Position numbers and translations under genes: made by a program | Virus record (IMG/VR): IMGVR_UViG_3300028925_016008 | Location: 1-41,974 of that record | From: a virus | Direction: 5' to 3' (one strand) | DNA: 41,974 nucleotides | Notes under the pieces: generated by a model | The model's input: only the letters and a program-made list of their open reading frames with translations | Told to the model about the DNA's origin: nothing | Database searches by the model: none | In this document: one piece after another, positions 23,783 through 41,974 of the stretch | How positions within the stretch are numbered: the first letter of the stretch is position 1 | Layout: every line of letters begins with the position of its first letter

Positions 23783-24054
23783 GCTGGCACCTCCTTCGAC
23801 AGCTGGCGTTCTGGCTGGAAGTCACCGCGCAGGGGCATCAGCGATTTATCTGCGTAGGCGGCGTTTAGGGGCGCGAGATCATGAGCGCATATCCAACCAT
23901 CACCCTTGGCGACATAACAGCCCGAGGGCGTATCGACGTAATCGCCCTTGGTGATGCGCTCAAGCAGCTCGACAACACTTCCTGCCATTACCGGTGGCAG
24001 GTCGATCAGCGTCAGCGCCACGCCCCCAACTTCCAGTTTTCCGTCCATCTTCAT
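23779..24054 (-). CDS. Small early protein, 91 aa
   Basis: No family recognised. Compact, with strand-like E-V-G-G-V-A-L-T-L-I-D-L-P-P-V near the start and a Y-V-D-T-P-S-G-C-Y-V region. AGAGG lies upstream of the ATG at 24054, which overlaps the recombinase stop as ATGA. Confidence 0.55.
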   Translation of the reverse strand: MKMDGKLEVGGVALTLIDLPPVMAGSVVELLERITKGDYVDTPSGCYVAKGDGWICAHDLAPLNAAYADKSLMPLRGDFQPERQLSKEVPA

Positions 24055-25082
24055 CCTCTACCCGTGAATACACTGGAAACGCCCGGAATGCCCGCAGCGT
24101 CTAGGCTTGCGTCCGTTTCCGGGGATGCAGCAGCGGCAACATTTAAGCCGTGCGCGATTGAAAAGCCGCACTCATCAAGCCGGGCATGCCATAGCTCAAG
24201 CGCCTCACGGCAGCGGCCTGCAACGTCACGGGTCAGATAGGTTTCGGCGGTCTTGCCCAGGCTGTGGTTGATCAGCCGCTCACCAATGAAGTGATCCACA
24301 CCCAGCTCAGACAGCGACGCCCGCATCAGCTTGCGCAGGTCATGGCTCGACCACTTACCGCCCGATATCGACCGGAACATTGAGTGCGCCGTAGTGGCTG
24401 ACAACCGAGCCCCGCCCCGCACCGGGAACACCCAATCACCCTGGGCGCGGGCATCAGGCAACGCCGCCCGATAGCGCGCCAGCAACGCCAGCACCTGAGG
24501 CGTCAAAGGCAGCTCATGAAGCCGGCTGGACTTGTTGGCAGGGATCACCCAAAAGCGCTCAGCCCTCGAAATATGCGCCCAGGTGGCCTTGAGCGTTTCC
24601 GATATGCGCGTGCCGTGGGCCAGCATCATCAAAGGCAACAGGCCGTTCACCGGGTCTTTGTCGAAGGCCTCTGAAAGCTGCGCAACCAAAGGTGGCAGGT
24701 CGATACGCGACAACGCCGCTGGCTTGCTCTTGATGGGCGCGCTGTCGAAGTCCTTGAACGTGATCGAGGCCATCGGGTTGATCTTGATGCGCCCCGTCTT
24801 TTCCGCCGTAGCGAACGCACGGCGCAACACCTGAATAGCCTTCTGCTGGGTGGCGGGCTTCTTCCCGTCACCGCCCATGCGCCAGATCAGCTTGTCATCC
24901 ACAACCCGCCGATCTAGCTTCTTGATGGCCACACGCGCCAGCGCCGGGAGAATGTTCACCCTGGCCATCGAAACCACGTTCTTCCTGTAATCCGAGTTCG
25001 CCGGGTACTTCTGCTCAACCCGGCGAAGCCACCACAGCACCACGTCGCCTGTGGTTCGCAGTTCGCCGCCCTTGGATGCCAT
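24051..25082 (-). CDS. Tyrosine recombinase within the early operon, 343 aa
   Basis: Full catalytic set visible: A-H-G-T-R-I-S-E with R159, N-K-S-S-R-L-H-E with K184, S-S-H-D-L-R-K with H247 and R250, I-N-H-S-L-G-K with H273, and A-E-T-Y-L with Y282. An N-terminal core-binding region precedes it. It differs from the terminal integrase, and its place among early lytic genes suggests another job, such as resolving replication intermediates or dimers, or an alternative integration target. It overlaps neighbours on both sides (TGATG with the DUF5664 gene), so it is co-transcribed with replication genes. Confidence 0.85.
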   Translation of the reverse strand: MASKGGELRTTGDVVLWWLRRVEQKYPANSDYRKNVVSMARVNILPALARVAIKKLDRRVVDDKLIWRMGGDGKKPATQQKAIQVLRRAFATAEKTGRIKINPMASITFKDFDSAPIKSKPAALSRIDLPPLVAQLSEAFDKDPVNGLLPLMMLAHGTRISETLKATWAHISRAERFWVIPANKSSRLHELPLTPQVLALLARYRAALPDARAQGDWVFPVRGGARLSATTAHSMFRSISGGKWSSHDLRKLMRASLSELGVDHFIGERLINHSLGKTAETYLTRDVAGRCREALELWHARLDECGFSIAHGLNVAAAASPETDASLDAAGIPGVSSVFTGRG

Positions 25083-26669: not shown

Positions 26670-27496
26670 AGGCGCACCCCCTGCCCTGCCCAGTCATCAT
26701 CCCCATCGGCGCTGGCATGGGCGTTGACCGCATTGCGCACAGCCTGGTTCTTCACCCACTTCGCCAGCCGATGGCACCATCCGCCTTGGCTGTCGGCCAT
26801 GTCGCGGTTAATCCAGAACGCCCTGAACTCATCCACCGCAGATTGGGTGATCAGGTTGGCTGCTACCCCGAGCAGGGTTGTTTGGGCCTTGAGGTTCAAC
26901 TCATCCGGCTGCCAGTCGAGGTGCATTTCAAACCGATGGCGCGCTTCAACGGAAGCACCGGTAGGTGCTGTAGTAGTAGATGTAGATGAAGAAGAAGATG
27001 TAGACCCGTCACCTTGCCGTTGGCTTGGTGTTGCACCCTGCCCTTCACCTAAGCCCCCCTTTGGTGAAGGCTTTGGCGTCTTCTTTCTAGGCCCATCACC
27101 CTCACCAAAGCGGGTGGATTCACCCCGCACAGTGCGCACATATTCATCACGCACCATGCGCGGGCTAAACCACACCGGGCCTTGCTGGACGGGCACCAGC
27201 GCTACTGGCTCACCTTCTTTACGACCACTGCGCGGCGTGTAAACAAACGGCTCGCACTCGCCCTTCTCAACGCCGTACAACACACCCTTATCAACCAGCT
27301 CTTTTAAGGCCTTCAAAGGCGCACCCAAAGCCTGCGCAATTTCCTTCAAAGGCCACGACAAAACACCGTAATTATCGCTGTCATGCAGCAGGCCCAGCAG
27401 CTCAATCCAAACCCCGCGAGCCTCCCATGAGCAGCGGCGAAGCTTGGCGTTGTTGCGCCAGTCAGCCGGGTAAAACTGGAACGATGGACGCTTCAC
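26666..27496 (-). CDS. Replication initiation protein O-like (DnaT-like C-terminus), 276 aa
   Basis: The N-terminus F-Q-F-Y-P-A-D-W-R-N-N-A-K-L is the start of DUF1376-like winged-helix replication proteins. A Ser/Thr-rich linker (about residues 162-180) and K/P-rich stretch separate it from a C-terminal domain resembling DnaT: W-Q-P-D-E-L, A-A-N-L-I-T, F-R-A-F-W-I-N-R. This layout suits an origin binder and primosome loader. A candidate origin repeat is inside the gene (27042-27070). The start at 27496 overlaps the regulator gene upstream. Confidence 0.8.
   Translation of the reverse strand: MKRPSFQFYPADWRNNAKLRRCSWEARGVWIELLGLLHDSDNYGVLSWPLKEIAQALGAPLKALKELVDKGVLYGVEKGECEPFVYTPRSGRKEGEPVALVPVQQGPVWFSPRMVRDEYVRTVRGESTRFGEGDGPRKKTPKPSPKGGLGEGQGATPSQRQGDGSTSSSSSTSTTTAPTGASVEARHRFEMHLDWQPDELNLKAQTTLLGVAANLITQSAVDEFRAFWINRDMADSQGGWCHRLAKWVKNQAVRNAVNAHASADGDDDWAGQGVRL
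27042..27070. repeat. Inverted repeat inside the O-like gene, possible origin element
   Basis: CCTTCACC (27042-27049) and GGTGAAGG (27063-27070) are perfectly complementary, 13 nt apart, in the linker-coding part. Several further TCACC/TTCACC elements lie nearby (27010-27135). Lambda-type phages often place their origin in the O gene. Confidence 0.3.
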
Positions 27497-28302
27497 AGGC
27501 CACCCCCAACACGCTTCACCAGCTCAACAAAGCGCTCGGTGTACCAATGCGGCTGGGTCTCACGCGGGCAGCTTGGGCTGGTGAGGTTTTTACCGTACTG
27601 CAGGCCCATATCCGTGATCGACCAAAAGGCCACCTCAGCGCCATGGCTGTTCTTGCGGGTCAGGCGCTTGAGGTAACCGTGAGCCTTCAACACCTGGTTG
27701 AACGCACTGGCACTCAGCGTCACGCCATGCTCACGCAACAAAGCACTCAGCGCCTTGGTTGGCATAGAGCTGCCATCGGTAGAGCCTGGGGCAGCGTCCA
27801 CCGCGTAGCCCGGCAGAAATCCAGCATCAAGGCCGTTCTGCTGGGCGATCTTCGACAGCATCATCATCTGGCTGGATGGCGCAGGCTTCAGCAGGCGCGT
27901 GAAGCACTCCAAAATGGCCATTTCACCCAGCAGCTTGCTTTGCAGAGGGGCAGCACCAGCAGCGGCATCAATCGCATTCAACCGAGCTACCACGCGACGG
28001 CGCACCGCCTTAGATTCGCGCATCGACACCAACATGCACTGATCGCGCGTGAGGTCGAAAATGGCCGACTCGGTTTTGTTCAAATTTTGCACTACCCTTT
28101 TTGTGTAGTGCTCGCCCTCAAGCTCATCCTCGATCTTCTCCGCAAACTTGTTGCGGCGGATCTCCGGTTCTCCGGCTTCGGCGCGGGCTGCATTGATAAT
28201 CTCAAGCAGTTCGGCGCTGCTCATTGTGCGCGCCACGTTTTGCGCAATCGGCAAACGTGGCGCGGCAATGGCGGTATTGATTGAGCGGGTGGCTGTGTGC
28301 AT
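27493..28302 (-). CDS. Rha/KilAC-like phage regulatory protein, 269 aa
   Basis: The N-terminal half has I-R-R-N-K-F-A-E-K-I-E-D-E-L, Y-T-K-R-V-V-Q-N and E-S-A-I-F-D-L-T-R-D-Q-C, then V-R-R-R-V-V-A-R-L-N-A-I, as in pRha-type regulators. The C-terminal part resembles the KilAC antirepressor domain (L-R-E-H-G-V-T-L near residue 190). Such proteins modulate the lysogenic switch or replication. Since the CI-like repressor lacks an autoprotease domain, an antirepressor role is worth considering. Confidence 0.65.
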   Translation of the reverse strand: MHTATRSINTAIAAPRLPIAQNVARTMSSAELLEIINAARAEAGEPEIRRNKFAEKIEDELEGEHYTKRVVQNLNKTESAIFDLTRDQCMLVSMRESKAVRRRVVARLNAIDAAAGAAPLQSKLLGEMAILECFTRLLKPAPSSQMMMLSKIAQQNGLDAGFLPGYAVDAAPGSTDGSSMPTKALSALLREHGVTLSASAFNQVLKAHGYLKRLTRKNSHGAEVAFWSITDMGLQYGKNLTSPSCPRETQPHWYTERFVELVKRVGGGL

Positions 28303-28367: not shown

Positions 28368-28799
28368 TTAAGCGGCCTTGATCGCCGCCTCAAGCGTGGC
28401 CAGGCTGTCACGCGCACCGACCAGCTCACGCTTGATCAGCTGCTTCTCATGCTGCGAAACATGGCCATCCTCCAGCGCATCTGTAACCGAGCGGGTTACG
28501 TCAGCCACCTCGGCGGACATATGCAGCAGCGCTGTGGTGAGGTCTTTGGCCAACACGGCCTGCTTCTCCACCAGCGCATAACCGAACTCATTCAGCAGTG
28601 CCCCCAGCACCAGCCGGCGGGCTTCCTCCGGCAGATGGGTCAGCACTTGGCCGAACAGCTCCAGGCTCATCCGGTGGTTCTCACGGTTGGGGTTCGCGCA
28701 ATCCAGCAGGCGGCTCTCGTTCACGCCCATACGCTTGGCCAGCGCGGTGCCGTTCTCGGCTTTAACCGCGCGGTGCAAGGTCCACTCAAAATCTTCCAT
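28368..28799 (-). CDS. CII-family phage regulator, 143 aa
   Basis: Opens M-E-D-F-E-W-T-L-H-R-A-V-K-A-E-N-G-T-A-L-A-K-R-M-G-V-N-E-S-R-L, the conserved start of phage regulatory CII-family proteins (PF06892-like), with a helix-turn-helix around residues 17-35. The rest is helical (S-L-E-L-F-G-Q-V-L-T-H; V-A-D-V-T-R-S-V-T-D-A). Members act as transcription factors promoting lysogeny. Encoded right after the cro-like gene. GGAG lies upstream of the ATG. Confidence 0.75.
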   Translation of the reverse strand: MEDFEWTLHRAVKAENGTALAKRMGVNESRLLDCANPNRENHRMSLELFGQVLTHLPEEARRLVLGALLNEFGYALVEKQAVLAKDLTTALLHMSAEVADVTRSVTDALEDGHVSQHEKQLIKRELVGARDSLATLEAAIKAA

Positions 28800-28864: not shown

Positions 28865-29065
28865 TCAGGCAGCGCTCTTAGGCAGCTGCGATGGAAATGG
28901 ACGCACTTCTTCCCCCTTCCAGGAGCCGTCCTCCTGTTCAGTCACGAAGACCTCACGGCCAACGCGCAGGGCTTTGCTCAGCGCGCCTTGCGACATGCCC
29001 AGCAAGGTGGCTGCCTGGACCTGGCCTTTCTCGGTTGCGAATTGATTAAGTGGGATGCGCCGCAT
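28865..29065 (-). CDS. cro: Cro-like repressor, 66 aa
   Basis: First gene of the minus-strand early operon, divergent from the CI-like gene. The sequence M-R-R-I-P-L-N-Q-F-A-T-E-K-G-Q-V-Q-A-A-T-L-L-G-M-S-Q-G-A-L-S-K-A-L forms a typical small helix-turn-helix, followed by a beta-like tail with V-F-V-T-E-Q-E-D-G-S-W. GGAG lies 8 nt before the ATG at 29065. Size and location match Cro, a dimeric repressor of the early promoters. Confidence 0.8.
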   Translation of the reverse strand: MRRIPLNQFATEKGQVQAATLLGMSQGALSKALRVGREVFVTEQEDGSWKGEEVRPFPSQLPKSAA

Positions 29066-29097: not shown

Positions 29098-29125
29098 ATT
29101 ATATCCATGGGATATACATAAGCAA
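29098..29125 (-). promoter_or_regulatory. PR-like early promoter driving cro
   Basis: On the minus strand a TATAAT -10 (29103-29098) lies 16 nt downstream of TTGCTT (29125-29120). The -10 overlaps operator 29100-29116. The leader to the cro ATG is about 25-30 nt. Confidence 0.65.
29100..29116. promoter_or_regulatory. Repressor operator, perfect (OR1-like)
   Basis: Palindrome TATATCC-ATG-GGATATA with 7-bp arms. The same arms occur at 31514-31530. It covers the PR-like -10 region. Confidence 0.8.
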
Positions 29126-29139
29126 GCCCATTGGAGATA
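29123..29139. promoter_or_regulatory. Repressor operator, weak (OR2-like)
   Basis: Arms CAAGCCC and GGAGATA around ATT; 9 of 14 positions match the consensus. Centre 23 bp from each neighbour. Confidence 0.4.
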
Positions 29140-29145
29140 GATGCT

Positions 29146-29162
29146 TATAGCCTTTGGGAATA
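29146..29162. promoter_or_regulatory. Repressor operator, intermediate (OR3-like)
   Basis: TATAGCC-TTT-GGGAATA; 11 of 14 positions match. It lies just upstream of the cI start at 29173, so may serve autoregulation. Confidence 0.55.
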
Positions 29163-29172
29163 CGATTCGCGA

Positions 29173-29667
29173 ATGACGACAGACCGCCGCAAACTGAATC
29201 CACAAGAACTCGCTGAGTGCGCTGCGCTGAAGGCCGAGATAGCGGCGCACAACTCTAAAGCGCAGCCAGGCAAGAAGCTCACGCAAGAGTTTCTGGCTCA
29301 AGAACTAGGGATGACCCAGGGCAATCTCAGTAGCCACCTCAATGGCAAGCGCGCCATAAGCAAGGAAATGGCGGCGAAGGCTGCGCTGCTTTTAGGCATC
29401 CAAGTAGAAGCCTTTAGCCCGCGATTGAGCTCCGAAATTTCTCTTATGGCACAGGCTGTCTCCAGCCCTGCCGCAAACGCAGCACCAGCGCCAGACTTCA
29501 ATATGGCCGCACTGCAACGCCTCAAAGGCAAAGCCACACCCCGCAGCTTGGCTGCTCTTGACCGCATAGAAAAGGCTGCCCAGCAAGGGCGACTCAAGGA
29601 AGCGGACCTCGTATTACTAGAAGGGATTGCTGCGCGCTTTGAAGAACTCAATACCAACCAGCCTTGA
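29173..29667 (+). CDS. cI: CI-like prophage repressor lacking the S24 domain, 164 aa
   Basis: XRE-type helix-turn-helix at about residues 36-60 (L-T-Q-E-F-L-A-Q-E-L-G-M-T-Q-G-N-L). The protein ends at residue 164 with an Ala/Gln-rich helical tail (R-S-L-A-A-L-D-R-I-E-K-A-A) and shows no LexA/CI-type peptidase (S24) domain, so RecA-stimulated self-cleavage is not expected. It is divergent from cro, next to three operators, and its end overlaps a HipA-like kinase gene, giving a repressor-kinase pairing like HipB-HipA. The start at 29173 is preferred over 29131 because that leaves the third operator upstream. Confidence 0.75.
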   Translation: MTTDRRKLNPQELAECAALKAEIAAHNSKAQPGKKLTQEFLAQELGMTQGNLSSHLNGKRAISKEMAAKAALLLGIQVEAFSPRLSSEISLMAQAVSSPAANAAPAPDFNMAALQRLKGKATPRSLAALDRIEKAAQQGRLKEADLVLLEGIAARFEELNTNQP

Positions 29668-30487
29668 GCCCATAGGCAAAGCCAACGTCAGTACCTTGCT
29701 AGGCAGGATGGACGAAGGCCGCGACGGCGAAACCTACAAAGCCGAACTGTTGGACGGTGACGGAAAAACCGTCACTGGCTACGTTAAGCTTTCGCTAGAC
29801 CCGCGCAAATTGATTGCCGAGTTGGCTACCGCCCAGGTTGGGCGGGCGCTTGGGCTGCGCATCCCAAGACCCTATGTAGCTGTGCTGGATACCGCCGACC
29901 TTCGCCCAGAGTTCGGCTCAGCCTTCGCCAATCGAGGGTCGATGGTCTGCTTTGCCAGTGAGCAAGCCGGCAAACGCAGCTACAGCCTGGAGCGCGGATT
30001 GCGCAAACCAAGCAAGGCACTCAAAGCGGCGCTTGAGAAACAGTTTGACCTGGGCAGCACCATCGCCCTAGATGAGCTGGTTGCTAATGATGACCGCAAC
30101 CTAGGCAACGTAATTTTCGCGCCCGGCAAACAAGAGTTCTGGTTAATCGACCATGGCCGGGCGCTAACAGGGACCTATTGGGCTTTGTGGGGCCTCGATG
30201 ACCCCTCCATTTCAGTGCGCAACCAACTGGCAGATGAAAGTGCGGGCGTTTGGGACCAGGCACAGCGAAAAGCCATCATCGACAAAGCCCGTGACCTTGT
30301 GAACAAATGCGCTACCTTGTGCCTAGATGACCTTGACCTCAACGGTTACTTCGCCAAAATTGACGCCACAACAGACCGTCAGGAAATCATCAACTTCCTG
30401 CGCCAGCGCATAAATCACACGGTGCACCTGCTATGCAATCGCCTACAAATGGGGCATCTGTCTTTGACGCAGCCCAAGCCTTCCTGA
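29627..30487 (+). CDS. HipA-like kinase, 286 aa
   Basis: HipA-type kinase motifs: a strand with G-Y-V-K-L-S, whose K near residue 54 could be the ATP lysine; then A-L-D-E-L-V-A-N-D-D-R-N-L-G-N, the catalytic loop with Asp near 155-156 and Asn 161; then W-L-I-D-H-G-R-A, the metal-binding Asp near 175. HipA kinases phosphorylate host proteins such as a tRNA synthetase, inhibiting growth. The frame begins with TTG at 29627, inside the repressor gene, and another TTG lies at 29639. The start is therefore uncertain, though the conserved N-terminal region requires one before 29708. Translation is likely coupled to the repressor. Confidence 0.75.
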   Translation: MLRALKNSIPTSLEPIGKANVSTLLGRMDEGRDGETYKAELLDGDGKTVTGYVKLSLDPRKLIAELATAQVGRALGLRIPRPYVAVLDTADLRPEFGSAFANRGSMVCFASEQAGKRSYSLERGLRKPSKALKAALEKQFDLGSTIALDELVANDDRNLGNVIFAPGKQEFWLIDHGRALTGTYWALWGLDDPSISVRNQLADESAGVWDQAQRKAIIDKARDLVNKCATLCLDDLDLNGYFAKIDATTDRQEIINFLRQRINHTVHLLCNRLQMGHLSLTQPKPS

Positions 30488-31353
30488 GCGAAGCCCCAGC
30501 CCAGCCATTGCTTAACGCCAGTTGGATGCCGGTGCTGCTTGAGCCAATCACTTTTTCTGGCGAGCGCATTACCATCGGTGTTGCTGTAGTGCCCGCTGAT
30601 GACACCCCTCCAAGGGTTATCAGCACCCTGCTCCCAGAGCCACTGGAACAAGTTTTTGGTCAGTACGGCAAACACCTTTACAACCTGGCGGGCGGCGTCA
30701 TCGCCGACCTGCAGGCGTTTCTCCTAACCGGTGGGAATCTGACCGCATGGGAGCCCCACATGCAGGGCGTTTTTGCCGGCAACATTGTGCCTACGCGCAA
30801 CATCAACTTGGCGGCAATCATCAAGTCAGCACTGGCTAACTCTTCACTGTTCAGCGCCAAGGCTCATGACAGCGCCAACCAGGTAGATGCTGCCGAGCGT
30901 TCGCTGAACAAATTCCAGGAAGAGATCAAGAAGCTGGTAGTGAGCTCGCGCGAAGGCATGAAGGTACGCTTTAACCAGCGCATGGCCATTTACGGCGGGA
31001 AAACCAAAACCCCTATAACCTACGTGGGTACCAGCTTAGCCATCAACCTGGCGGCTCTCGACACAACCATGACCTCGCACTCACAGCAGCGTGATGCAGC
31101 GCACCGCAAAATCAACCAGCTGCTTGCCCTGCGTGACATCGTGATCGGCCACCGAAAAGACCATTTAATGGTCGGCCTATGGACGCCCAAACGCGAGCTC
31201 ACAAAGCACCAAGAAGAACTATTCGACGCTTACACAACCGAACTGGAGTGGGCATCCAACAAGGCTGGAGTCGAGTATGTTCTTGCCGACGGCGGTGTTG
31301 ATACCGCGATGGCAGCGAAGCCATTTGCTCAGAAAATACTGGCAGACGCCTGA
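30433..31353 (+). CDS. Unrecognised 306-aa protein paired with the HipA-like kinase
   Basis: Overlaps the kinase by 55 nt, so it is probably part of the same function. The N-terminal 100 residues include P-I-T-F-S-G-E-R-I-T-I-G-V-A-V-V, faintly like the E-R-x-N-x-G-V-x-V of DUF3037, which often accompanies HipA-like kinases elsewhere. The rest is helical, with a K-F-Q-E-E-I-K-K-L coiled segment near 160. No catalytic motif was recognised. It could be a regulator, a substrate or an antitoxin. Ends 33 nt before an intrinsic terminator. Confidence 0.6.
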   Translation: MQSPTNGASVFDAAQAFLSEAPAQPLLNASWMPVLLEPITFSGERITIGVAVVPADDTPPRVISTLLPEPLEQVFGQYGKHLYNLAGGVIADLQAFLLTGGNLTAWEPHMQGVFAGNIVPTRNINLAAIIKSALANSSLFSAKAHDSANQVDAAERSLNKFQEEIKKLVVSSREGMKVRFNQRMAIYGGKTKTPITYVGTSLAINLAALDTTMTSHSQQRDAAHRKINQLLALRDIVIGHRKDHLMVGLWTPKRELTKHQEELFDAYTTELEWASNKAGVEYVLADGGVDTAMAAKPFAQKILADA

Positions 31354-31386
31354 CTTAGACTAACCTCGCCTAAACCGCACAACCAA

Positions 31387-31414
31387 AGCCCCGCCATTGA
31401 GCGGGGCTTTCTTA
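31387..31414 (+). terminator. Intrinsic terminator ending the repressor operon
   Basis: Perfect 8-bp AGCCCCGC/GCGGGGCT stem (31387-31408) followed by a T-rich run. Isolates the lysogeny operon from the PL-like promoter. Confidence 0.85.
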
Positions 31415-31449
31415 TCCAAGGCTGACCATCCTTCAGATCATCTAAGCAA

Positions 31450-31470
31450 GCCCGCCCAGCGCGGGCTTTT
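31450..31470 (+). terminator. Second intrinsic terminator before the PL-like promoter
   Basis: A GCCCGC/GCGGGC stem with a 5-nt loop and five T, the same stem as the late-gene terminators at 1009-1025 and 7980-7996. Confidence 0.8.
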
Positions 31471-31489: not shown

Positions 31490-31506
31490 TATTTCCATTG
31501 GAGTTG
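31490..31506. promoter_or_regulatory. Repressor operator, weak (OL2-like)
   Basis: TATTTCC-ATT-GGAGTTG; 10 of 14 positions match. It overlaps the PL-like -35 element and is centred 24 bp from the perfect copy. Confidence 0.45.
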
Positions 31507-31532
31507 ACGAATGTATATCCCCTGGATATATT
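31504..31532 (+). promoter_or_regulatory. PL-like promoter of the plus-strand early operon
   Basis: TTGACG (-35, 31504-31509), a 17-nt spacer and TATATT (-10, 31527-31532): a strong sigma70-type promoter. The perfect operator covers the spacer and -10, so the repressor should silence it in the prophage. Confidence 0.85.
31514..31530. promoter_or_regulatory. Repressor operator, perfect (OL1-like)
   Basis: TATATCC-CCT-GGATATA, the same arms as the operator at 29100-29116. Confidence 0.8.
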
Positions 31533-40641: not shown

Positions 40642-40884
40642 ATGAGTCTTGCAACCCTTGAAGAGTGGGCGGCCGAGAACTTCAAAACGCCGCCCAGCAC
40701 CAACACCCTGCGCAAGTGGGCCCGCGAGGGCTCAATCCAGCCTGCGCCAGTCAAGCATGGCCGCAGCTATTATGTTGAGCTGGATGCCAAGTACAAAGAA
40801 CCCGAGAAGCCTCAGCCAATCCCCCGAGGCTCAAGCCTTATCAGCCGAATAGAGGCCGCCCGCCATGTCTCCCAGGCCGCGTAA
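40642..40884 (+). CDS. xis: Excisionase (Xis-like), 80 aa
   Basis: Opens M-S-L-A-T-L-E-E-W-A-A-E-N-F, followed by P-S-T-N-T-L-R-K-W-A-R-E-G-S-I-Q-P-A-P-V and G-R-S-Y-Y-V, the winged-helix pattern of lambda-type excisionases. It directs excisive recombination with the integrase. The ATG has an AGAGG site, and the gene overlaps the integrase by 20 nt. Confidence 0.85.
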   Translation: MSLATLEEWAAENFKTPPSTNTLRKWAREGSIQPAPVKHGRSYYVELDAKYKEPEKPQPIPRGSSLISRIEAARHVSQAA

Positions 40885-41974
40885 TGAAGGCAGCAAAGAC
40901 CTTGCTGGCCTGAACCTGTACCGCAAGCTGGATAAGCGCAACGGGAAAACCTACTACACGTACCGCGACCCAGTGTCGGGCCGCTGCTTTGGGCTCGGCA
41001 CGGACAAGGAGACCGCTATCCGTGAGGCGGTCGCGGCCAATCACGCGCTGAACACTAAGCCGCCGGCATTGGCTGATCGGCTAGCGGCGAAGTCCGCCGC
41101 GCCAAGCCGCCTGTTTTCTGCATGGTTGGACGAGTACCGGGGGCTTTACCAGGAGCGCGGCCTGGCGCCAGCCAGCATCGAGACCATGCGCATGCGGATC
41201 AACCGGATTGATGCAGTGTTTGGGAGTATGGATATCCGGCAGATCACCACCATGGACGTAGCCAGCTACCTGGGAGACATGGCCAAGGCCGGCAAGGCGC
41301 AGATGTCCAGGGCCATGCGTTCGCTGCTGCGGGATGTATTCATGGAGGCGGTGGCGGCAGGATGGGCAACCACCAATCCGGTGGAAGTCACCAAGGCTGC
41401 GAGGGTCAAGATCAAACGGCAGCGCCTGACCCTGGAGATTTGGAAGGCGACATATGCGGAGGCCAAGCAGGCGTGGCTGAAGAGGGCCATGGAACTGGCT
41501 GTACTGACTGGGCAGCGACGGGAGGATATTGCCGGCATGCTGTTCAAGGATGAGCACGACGGTTTCTTGCATGTGGTTCAATCGAAGACCGGGGCGCGAC
41601 TGCGGATCAGCACCGGACTGCGGCTAGAGGCTTTAGGCCTAGAGCTTGGCAGCGTGATCAAAAGCTGCCGGGATCGGGTGGTGTCACAAAACCTTATCCA
41701 TCACGCGCGCACAATTAGCCTCGCGAAGGCTGGGCAGCGGGTTGTGCTGGATACCATCAGCAAGGAGTTTGCCGCAGCACGCGACCGAGCAGCCGCAAAG
41801 CTTGGGATCGACTTCGGCGACCACCCACCCACCTTCCATGAGATGCGATCACTAGCGGCCCGCCTGCATGCCGCCGAGGGCCGCGACCCTCAGTCACTGC
41901 TTGGCCACCGGCACGCGAAGATGACCGATCTTTACCGAGACAGTCGTGGGGCCGAATGGATCGACGTGGCATAA
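40865..41974 (+). CDS. int: Lambda-type phage integrase (tyrosine recombinase), 369 aa
   Basis: Site-specific integrase. An arm-binding-like N-terminus (Y-Y-T-Y-R-D-P near 30), a core-binding domain, then the catalytic residues: G-Q-R-R-E with Arg near 218, Q-S-K-T-G-A-R with Lys 241, T-F-H-E-M-R with His 325 and Arg 328, L-G-H-R-H with His 348, and D-L-Y-R-D with Tyr 357. The window ends at its stop, so the attachment site beyond is not visible. It follows the excisionase in the PL-like operon, so its repression in the lysogen is expected. Confidence 0.95.
   Translation: MSPRPRNEGSKDLAGLNLYRKLDKRNGKTYYTYRDPVSGRCFGLGTDKETAIREAVAANHALNTKPPALADRLAAKSAAPSRLFSAWLDEYRGLYQERGLAPASIETMRMRINRIDAVFGSMDIRQITTMDVASYLGDMAKAGKAQMSRAMRSLLRDVFMEAVAAGWATTNPVEVTKAARVKIKRQRLTLEIWKATYAEAKQAWLKRAMELAVLTGQRREDIAGMLFKDEHDGFLHVVQSKTGARLRISTGLRLEALGLELGSVIKSCRDRVVSQNLIHHARTISLAKAGQRVVLDTISKEFAAARDRAAAKLGIDFGDHPPTFHEMRSLAARLHAAEGRDPQSLLGHRHAKMTDLYRDSRGAEWIDVA

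Follow-up and report, generated by a model that had tools for sequence, protein, structure and literature searches.

A HipA_2-fold kinase and a DUF3037-like partner in the rex position behind a peptidase-less CI repressor of a Pseudomonas-type prophage

Why would a prophage carry a HipA-like kinase and a further protein of 306 aa in one operon with its repressor, and does the repressor act as the antitoxin of that kinase? The window, by which we mean the whole stretch of DNA that was analysed, is a virus record of 41,974 bases (IMG/VR record IMGVR_UViG_3300028925_016008). Its source is a dormant virus (prophage) of a Pseudomonas-type bacterium. It carries a lambda-type immunity region, with oR and oL operator arrays around cI, a divergent cro, a cII gene and accessory genes before oL. 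A DnaT-domain replication gene is also found on the minus strand, beyond cro and the CII-like gene. The record contains two integrase-family genes, one in the early minus-strand operon (24051-25082) and one on the plus strand at the right end (40865-41974).

The operators were recognised by a 17-bp palindrome, TATATCC-N3-GGATATA, which has perfect copies at 29100 and 31514 and none elsewhere in the window. With up to three mismatches allowed we see 3 matches, where 0.15 would be expected by chance. The operator-like sites at 29100, 29123 and 29146 have a 23-bp register in common, and since sites with 9 or 10 of 14 matching positions also arise by chance elsewhere, the weak operator-like sites depend on this register only. 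CI would be expected to bind at the oR and oL palindromes. As oR (29100-29162) and oL (31490-31530) flank the operon, its three genes occupy the position of lambda cI-rexA-rexB. Two terminator-like hairpins were also found, in a region where the number of such sites is not above that in shuffles. No LexA-box-like site was found in the window.

The operon itself (29173-31353, plus strand) runs from the CI-type repressor through the HipA_2-fold kinase to the 306-aa protein. The cI and kinase frames overlap by 41 bases, and the kinase and 306-aa frames by 55 bases. The start of the kinase is uncertain, with TTG codons at 29627 and 29639 that both lie within cI. Both the frames and the domains confirm the overlapping operon that a previous sequence-only reading had described. 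From the operators, the shared strand and the overlaps we infer that cI, the kinase gene and the third gene are on one lysogenic transcript. The same reading had proposed a search for this gene order in other phages. It recurs in many loci, which shows that the arrangement is not due to chance, and the analysis of co-inheritance given below does not contradict it.

Table 1. Positions of the operon, its regulatory sites and neighbouring genes in the window
Feature	Positions	Strand	Basis or remark
Antirepressor-family protein, lytic (pR) operon	27493..28302	-	phrog_129, phrog_1726, phrog_63 anti-repressor
CII-like activator	28368..28799	-	Pfam Phage_CP76 E=1e-18; phrog_101
Cro	28865..29065	-	Pfam Cro E=1.3e-20; divergent from cI
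oR1-like palindrome TATATCCATGGGATATA	29100..29116	.	14/14
Weak operator-like site	29123..29139	.	9/14; 23-bp register its sole support
Operator-like site directly before cI	29146..29162	.	11/14; 23-bp register
CI-type repressor, 164 aa, ATG start	29173..29667	+	HTH_3 E=2.4e-7; HTH about aa 15-80, linker, helical C-terminal tail
Repressor C-terminal tail, aa 111-160, MAALQRLKGKATPRSLAALDRIEKAAQQGRLKEADLVLLEGIAARFEELN, with T122-P-R-S125 motif	29503..29652	+	Kept behind unrelated HTHs
HipA_2 (HipA/CtkA-fold) Ser/Thr-type kinase, 286 aa	29627..30487	+	Pfam PF20613
DUF3037-like partner, probable antitoxin, 306 aa	30433..31353	+	phrog_21150; profile chain to DUF3037/PDC-M66B
GC-rich hairpin then T-rich sequence, operon end	31385..31410	+	Sequence; terminator-like
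Second terminator-like hairpin	31448-31468		Sequence
Weak operator-like site beside oL	31490..31506	.	10/14
pL-like promoter TTGACG-17-TATATT	31504..31532	+	Consensus match 10/12; overlaps oL operator
oL-like palindrome TATATCCCCTGGATATA	31514..31530	.	14/14

The repressor has a helix-turn-helix (HTH) domain and gave no match to Peptidase_S24 in Pfam. The CI of phage FBPa19 has an HTH which is 60% identical to that of the window repressor and is followed by Peptidase_S24, so the C-terminus of the window repressor truly differs. This agrees with the expectation, raised from the sequence alone, that the repressor lacks a peptidase and is non-cleavable. Since the peptidase is missing, induction probably proceeds via an antirepressor rather than RecA, and the antirepressor-family gene of the lytic operon is a candidate inactivator. 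Non-cleavable repressors under antirepressor control are known from the Gifsy phages (PMC3121763). The Gifsy repressors GfoR and GtgR are small and are inactivated by antirepressors, and GfoR has no kinase behind it.

The second gene had been read as a HipA-like kinase, and our results support this assignment. The protein matches HipA_2 (PF20613) with 30.4 bits, above the Pfam cut-off of 27, and its AlphaFold2 model (pLDDT 90.1, pTM 0.87) is most similar to the HipA-like kinase CtkA (Z 17, 226 residues, 4.0 A), followed by PI4-kinases, HipA (Z 12-13.7) and HipT. Among 31-34 homologues the catalytic residues D156, R157, N161 and D175 show no variation, nor do K54, E65, D149 and N154, so that the catalytic positions speak for a genuine kinase. 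A loss of the catalytic Asp/Asn positions, named in the sequence-only reading as a refuting result, is thus not seen. The match to PDC-M66A has E=0.023. No meaningful direct sequence match of the kinase to solved structures was seen, and no plasmid copies of it were found.

For the 306-aa protein there is no match in Pfam, and the PHROG and Pfam matches of the kinase and third gene together are HipA_2, phrog_11186, phrog_3162 and phrog_21150. A relationship to DUF3037 emerges in two steps. In profile comparisons a bridge set matches the family of the window protein along the entire length (E 6.6e-7, prob 92) and also matches canonical DUF3037 (E 1.7e-6, prob 90), whereas the window family compared directly with canonical DUF3037 gives no significant match. 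Homologues of the third protein in loci L096 and L147 exceed the DUF3037 cut-off, and PADLOC PDC-M66B matches bridge proteins, including that of L096. The DUF3037 signature E(F/Y)LNVGV is present in the homologues from D14P-type and similar loci, and L147 reads LLEPDMLRGERINIGV, which resembles LLEPITFSGERITIGV of the window protein. We therefore call the third protein DUF3037-like, that is, a putative divergent relative linked through intermediates. Its AlphaFold2 model has two domains (pLDDT 85.6, pTM 0.51); the fold search gave no strong match, and direct sequence comparison gave no meaningful match to solved structures. The C-terminal domain (aa 151-306) reaches Z 8-9.6 to CdiA-CT, ERCC1, Can2 and PspGI, which is near the baseline and a weak hint.

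Kinases of this family with a DUF3037 partner have been characterised in phage defence. In Retron-Sda1, deletion of the kinase abolished defence and deletion of the DUF3037 gene was toxic, and the HTH protein, the ncRNA and the reverse transcriptase were dispensable (PMC12548924). In DS-6/HipAD, mutation of a catalytic residue of the kinase led to loss of defence, and kinase and DUF3037 protein are strongly predicted to form a complex (PMC13092281). HipAD has been found in E. coli prophages, according to Brenes and Laub 2025 as cited in PMC13092281. HipAD (DS-6, PDC-M66) and Retron-Sda1 share with the window the kinase family, the order of kinase and then partner, the overlapping genes and the prophage location. 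The window pair differs from HipAD in that it forms a divergent branch, with a kinase of about 20-30% identity to characterised relatives, and in that it overlaps a tail-type repressor, while canonical phage copies mostly follow an S24 CI with a gap. Because the partner neutralises the kinase in these published relatives, it is the third gene, and not the repressor, that is the likely antitoxin. The most direct transfer from the relatives makes the kinase the likely toxin and the third protein its likely antitoxin, in place of the regulator or substrate that had been suggested for it.

The occurrence of the pair across phages bears on the role of the repressor. In almost all loci a homologue of the third protein comes after the kinase. 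Profile scans, which were pattern-based, covered IMG/VR and sampled genomes and do not give unbiased frequencies, gave us 47 distinct kinases, mostly from divergent pairs. Upstream of them we find a tail-type repressor in 22 cases, an S24 repressor in 10 (including the two canonical HipAD loci L115 and L118), another HTH protein in 3 and an Arc protein in 2; for the remainder the upstream region either ends at the contig edge or holds no repressor that we recognise. An S24 or tail-type repressor thus precedes 32 of the 47. A scan for canonical HipA_2, with the same caution on frequencies, yielded 175 phage relatives, of which 80 were kept and 49 are distinct. DUF3037 lies downstream of every one of these 49. 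For 36 of them an S24 CI is encoded upstream, within 1.2 kb and on the same strand, and a short HTH protein precedes at least four others. Kinase and DUF3037 lie side by side in 18 of 18 sampled canonical DUF3037/HipA_2 loci. HipAD-type pairs regularly reside behind cI in phages. Copies behind an Arc-type gene were seen at L003:3585-5522 and L059:1201-3125, and in L003, an Acinetobacter phage, the pair lies among tail genes outside the immunity region.

These data, which show that the pair is not bound to one type of repressor, are the main argument against a classical HipBA module, in which neutralisation would fall to the prophage repressor as HipB and the third protein would be a substrate or regulator. 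It is true that the HTH gene precedes and overlaps the gene of a HipA-fold kinase, as in hipBA, that HipBA and HipBST likewise have an HTH gene before the kinase in one operon, and that the repressor HTH has a weak match to a HigA-antitoxin HMM. However, the kinase and third gene are kept with tail-type, S24, Arc, other or no repressors, the kinase gene almost always has the third gene after it, and in the relatives it is the DUF3037 protein that neutralises, the HTH being dispensable for defence (PMC12548924). In contrast to HipBA and HipBST, the window has a DUF3037-like partner, and we found no antitoxin of a dedicated HipB or HipS type there. We consider it very unlikely that the module works as HipBA does, and the proposal of the sequence-only reading that the repressor doubles as HipB is not supported.

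We suggest instead that the operon probably is a HipAD-type abortive-infection or toxin-antitoxin cassette in the rex slot under the control of CI. In the lysogen, CI at oR and oL would keep the lytic promoters off, and cI, the kinase and the partner would be expressed from the promoter of cI as one overlapping operon. By analogy with HipAD and Retron-Sda1, the DUF3037-like partner would bind the HipA_2 kinase and keep it inactive. A superinfecting phage might then upset the pair; the kinase would phosphorylate some target in the cell, and growth would be arrested in time to keep the invader from spreading. CI would regulate transcription of the operon, much as HipB does in hipBA, without being the antitoxin that chiefly neutralises the kinase, and induction would probably take the antirepressor route. 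The repressor tail would be part of the inherited cassette; it may contact the pair, although this explanation does not require contact. Toxicity, neutralisation and defence are here transferred from distant relatives, and should be read as predictions. The frequent occurrence of HipAD-type pairs behind cI suggests that the immunity operon of a lysogen can also power abortive infection.

Other phages have filled the same position in different ways. Lambda rexAB and RexABpp of P. putida fill the slot behind cI (PMC12894663). Like the window pair they are two-gene systems downstream of cI that are expressed in lysogeny, and their function is exclusion, but they pair a DNA-binding protein (RexA) with a membrane protein (RexB), where the window has a kinase and a DUF3037-like protein. 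The Stk kinase of phage 933W is co-transcribed with cI and aborts superinfection by HK97 (PMC3564112). Unlike the window kinase it is a eukaryotic-like tyrosine kinase outside the HipA family, and no DUF3037 partner of it is known. A parallel for the repressor comes from the cryptic prophage CP-933P, where paaR2-paaA2-parE2 combines, within a lambdoid immunity region, a peptidase-less CI analogue with a toxin-antitoxin pair (PMC8630535). As in the window, the pair is co-transcribed with the CI analogue and lies opposite Cro- and CII-like genes; the differences are the toxin ParE, the antitoxin PaaA2 and the order repressor-antitoxin-toxin. A characterised lysogeny switch of similar build, of which the sequence-only reading knew none, does exist. 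The combination of a HipA_2/DUF3037-like pair, a peptidase-less CI and a tail cassette is a variant on known concepts, and we did not find the same combination of elements in the literature searched.

The paaA2-parE2 pair stabilises its replicon (PMC8630535), and from its same position one might suppose that the window pair, too, consists of accessory lysogeny genes that tune the lysis-lysogeny decision or maintain the prophage by addiction, with no part in phage defence. The placement of the pair in the immunity operon would fit such a role. Against it stands the phage defence given by the relatives HipAD and Sda1 (PMC12548924, PMC13092281), and we think there is little chance that the pair has purely accessory functions.

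One of the more unusual features of the operon is the inheritance of the repressor tail. In loci with kinases that are 69-88% identical the HTHs are unrelated or weakly related, while the C-terminal 50 residues are alike. In 21 triads compared pairwise, the identities of the tail correlate with those of the kinase at r=0.88, and those of kinase and third protein at r=0.98, compared to r=0.24 for HTH and kinase. Mean identity within the kinase clade of the window is 28% for the HTH, 72% for the tail, 66% for the kinase and 61% for the third protein. Judged by these identities, the tail is inherited with the kinase in the lineage of the window, while the DNA-binding half is swapped. Double coding does not account for the conservation of the tail, since no more than its final residues are shared with the kinase frame. 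The HTH of the window is found elsewhere with other C-termini, S24 in FBPa19 and possibly a HEPN-like one in L061, and the D14P HTH occurs with an S24 C-terminus in L118. The varied pairing of HTHs and C-termini places a recombination joint inside cI, where the HTH is exchanged and the short tail stays with the kinase. Comparison with solved structures gave no meaningful direct sequence match for the tail, and an identity with the tail of the Gifsy repressors was ruled out as the tail profile does not match GfoR.

The co-inheritance raises the question whether the kinase pair could dock on the tail or use it as a phospho-acceptor. The repressor might guard the kinase, which would be set free once the repressor is lost. 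Alternatively, the kinase might phosphorylate the tail, for instance at S125 in T-P-R-S, and alter repression, leading to SOS-independent induction. In such a three-part switch the kinase, held by its partner, would bind or phosphorylate the tail, and one kinase would set both immunity and growth arrest in a RecA-free manner; phages would acquire a new immunity by swapping the DNA-binding half, with the tail-kinase-partner cassette left in place. Apart from the correlations given above, a coupling is favoured by a search with the tail only, in which 12 of 12 loci have kinase and partner (several of them nearly identical copies of a single P. aeruginosa-type prophage), and by the presence of the tail with 22 of the 47 mostly divergent kinases versus none of the 49 canonical ones. 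A further point in its favour is the last position of the conserved tail motif [ST]-P-x-[ST]. All 21 kinase-linked tails have S or T there, whereas 22 of 26 proteins without a kinase have A (for distinct segments, Fisher p=1e-5); this statistic ignores relatedness, so the contrast is only a lead towards phosphorylation.

Several observations weaken the case for coupling. The tail adjoins the kinase gene, and hitch-hiking would yield co-inheritance without any contact. In 25 viral loci of one Pseudomonas clade the tail is present and the kinase absent, which rules out a strictly kinase-specific tail. In L096, a member of the D14P-type kinase clade, the repressor is of the S24 type, so the kinase has been kept without the tail. 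The contrast of S or T with A stems from few clades, and the position may merely cap a helix. We regard a docking or phospho-acceptor role of the tail as rather unlikely, and the three-part switch built on it, including the exchange of immunity around a constant cassette, as doubtful to the same degree. If the tail does contact the kinase, it would directly link phage immunity to a persister-type kinase and provide a RecA-independent control of lysogeny.

Further arrangements of these parts were seen in other loci. A large clade of Pseudomonas prophages (L020-L044, L102-L110) has peptidase-less repressors of 150 aa that share the tail and lack the kinase, and in several of these loci an Arc-type or second HTH gene lies downstream of the repressor. 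L061:3226-3906 encodes a window-type HTH with another C-terminus that has a weak Swt1-like HEPN match (E=0.008) and an R-N-E-I-A-H motif, and is possibly an HTH-HEPN repressor. It overlaps a distant HipA_2 kinase and partner, and L120 is a relative. Finally, a very divergent triad is found in a 2.1-Mb genome (L122:1135-3147), with a tail-type repressor, a kinase with NVDRHLNN and IDNG motifs and a DUF3037-like protein, which suggests that the arrangement may extend beyond Pseudomonas.
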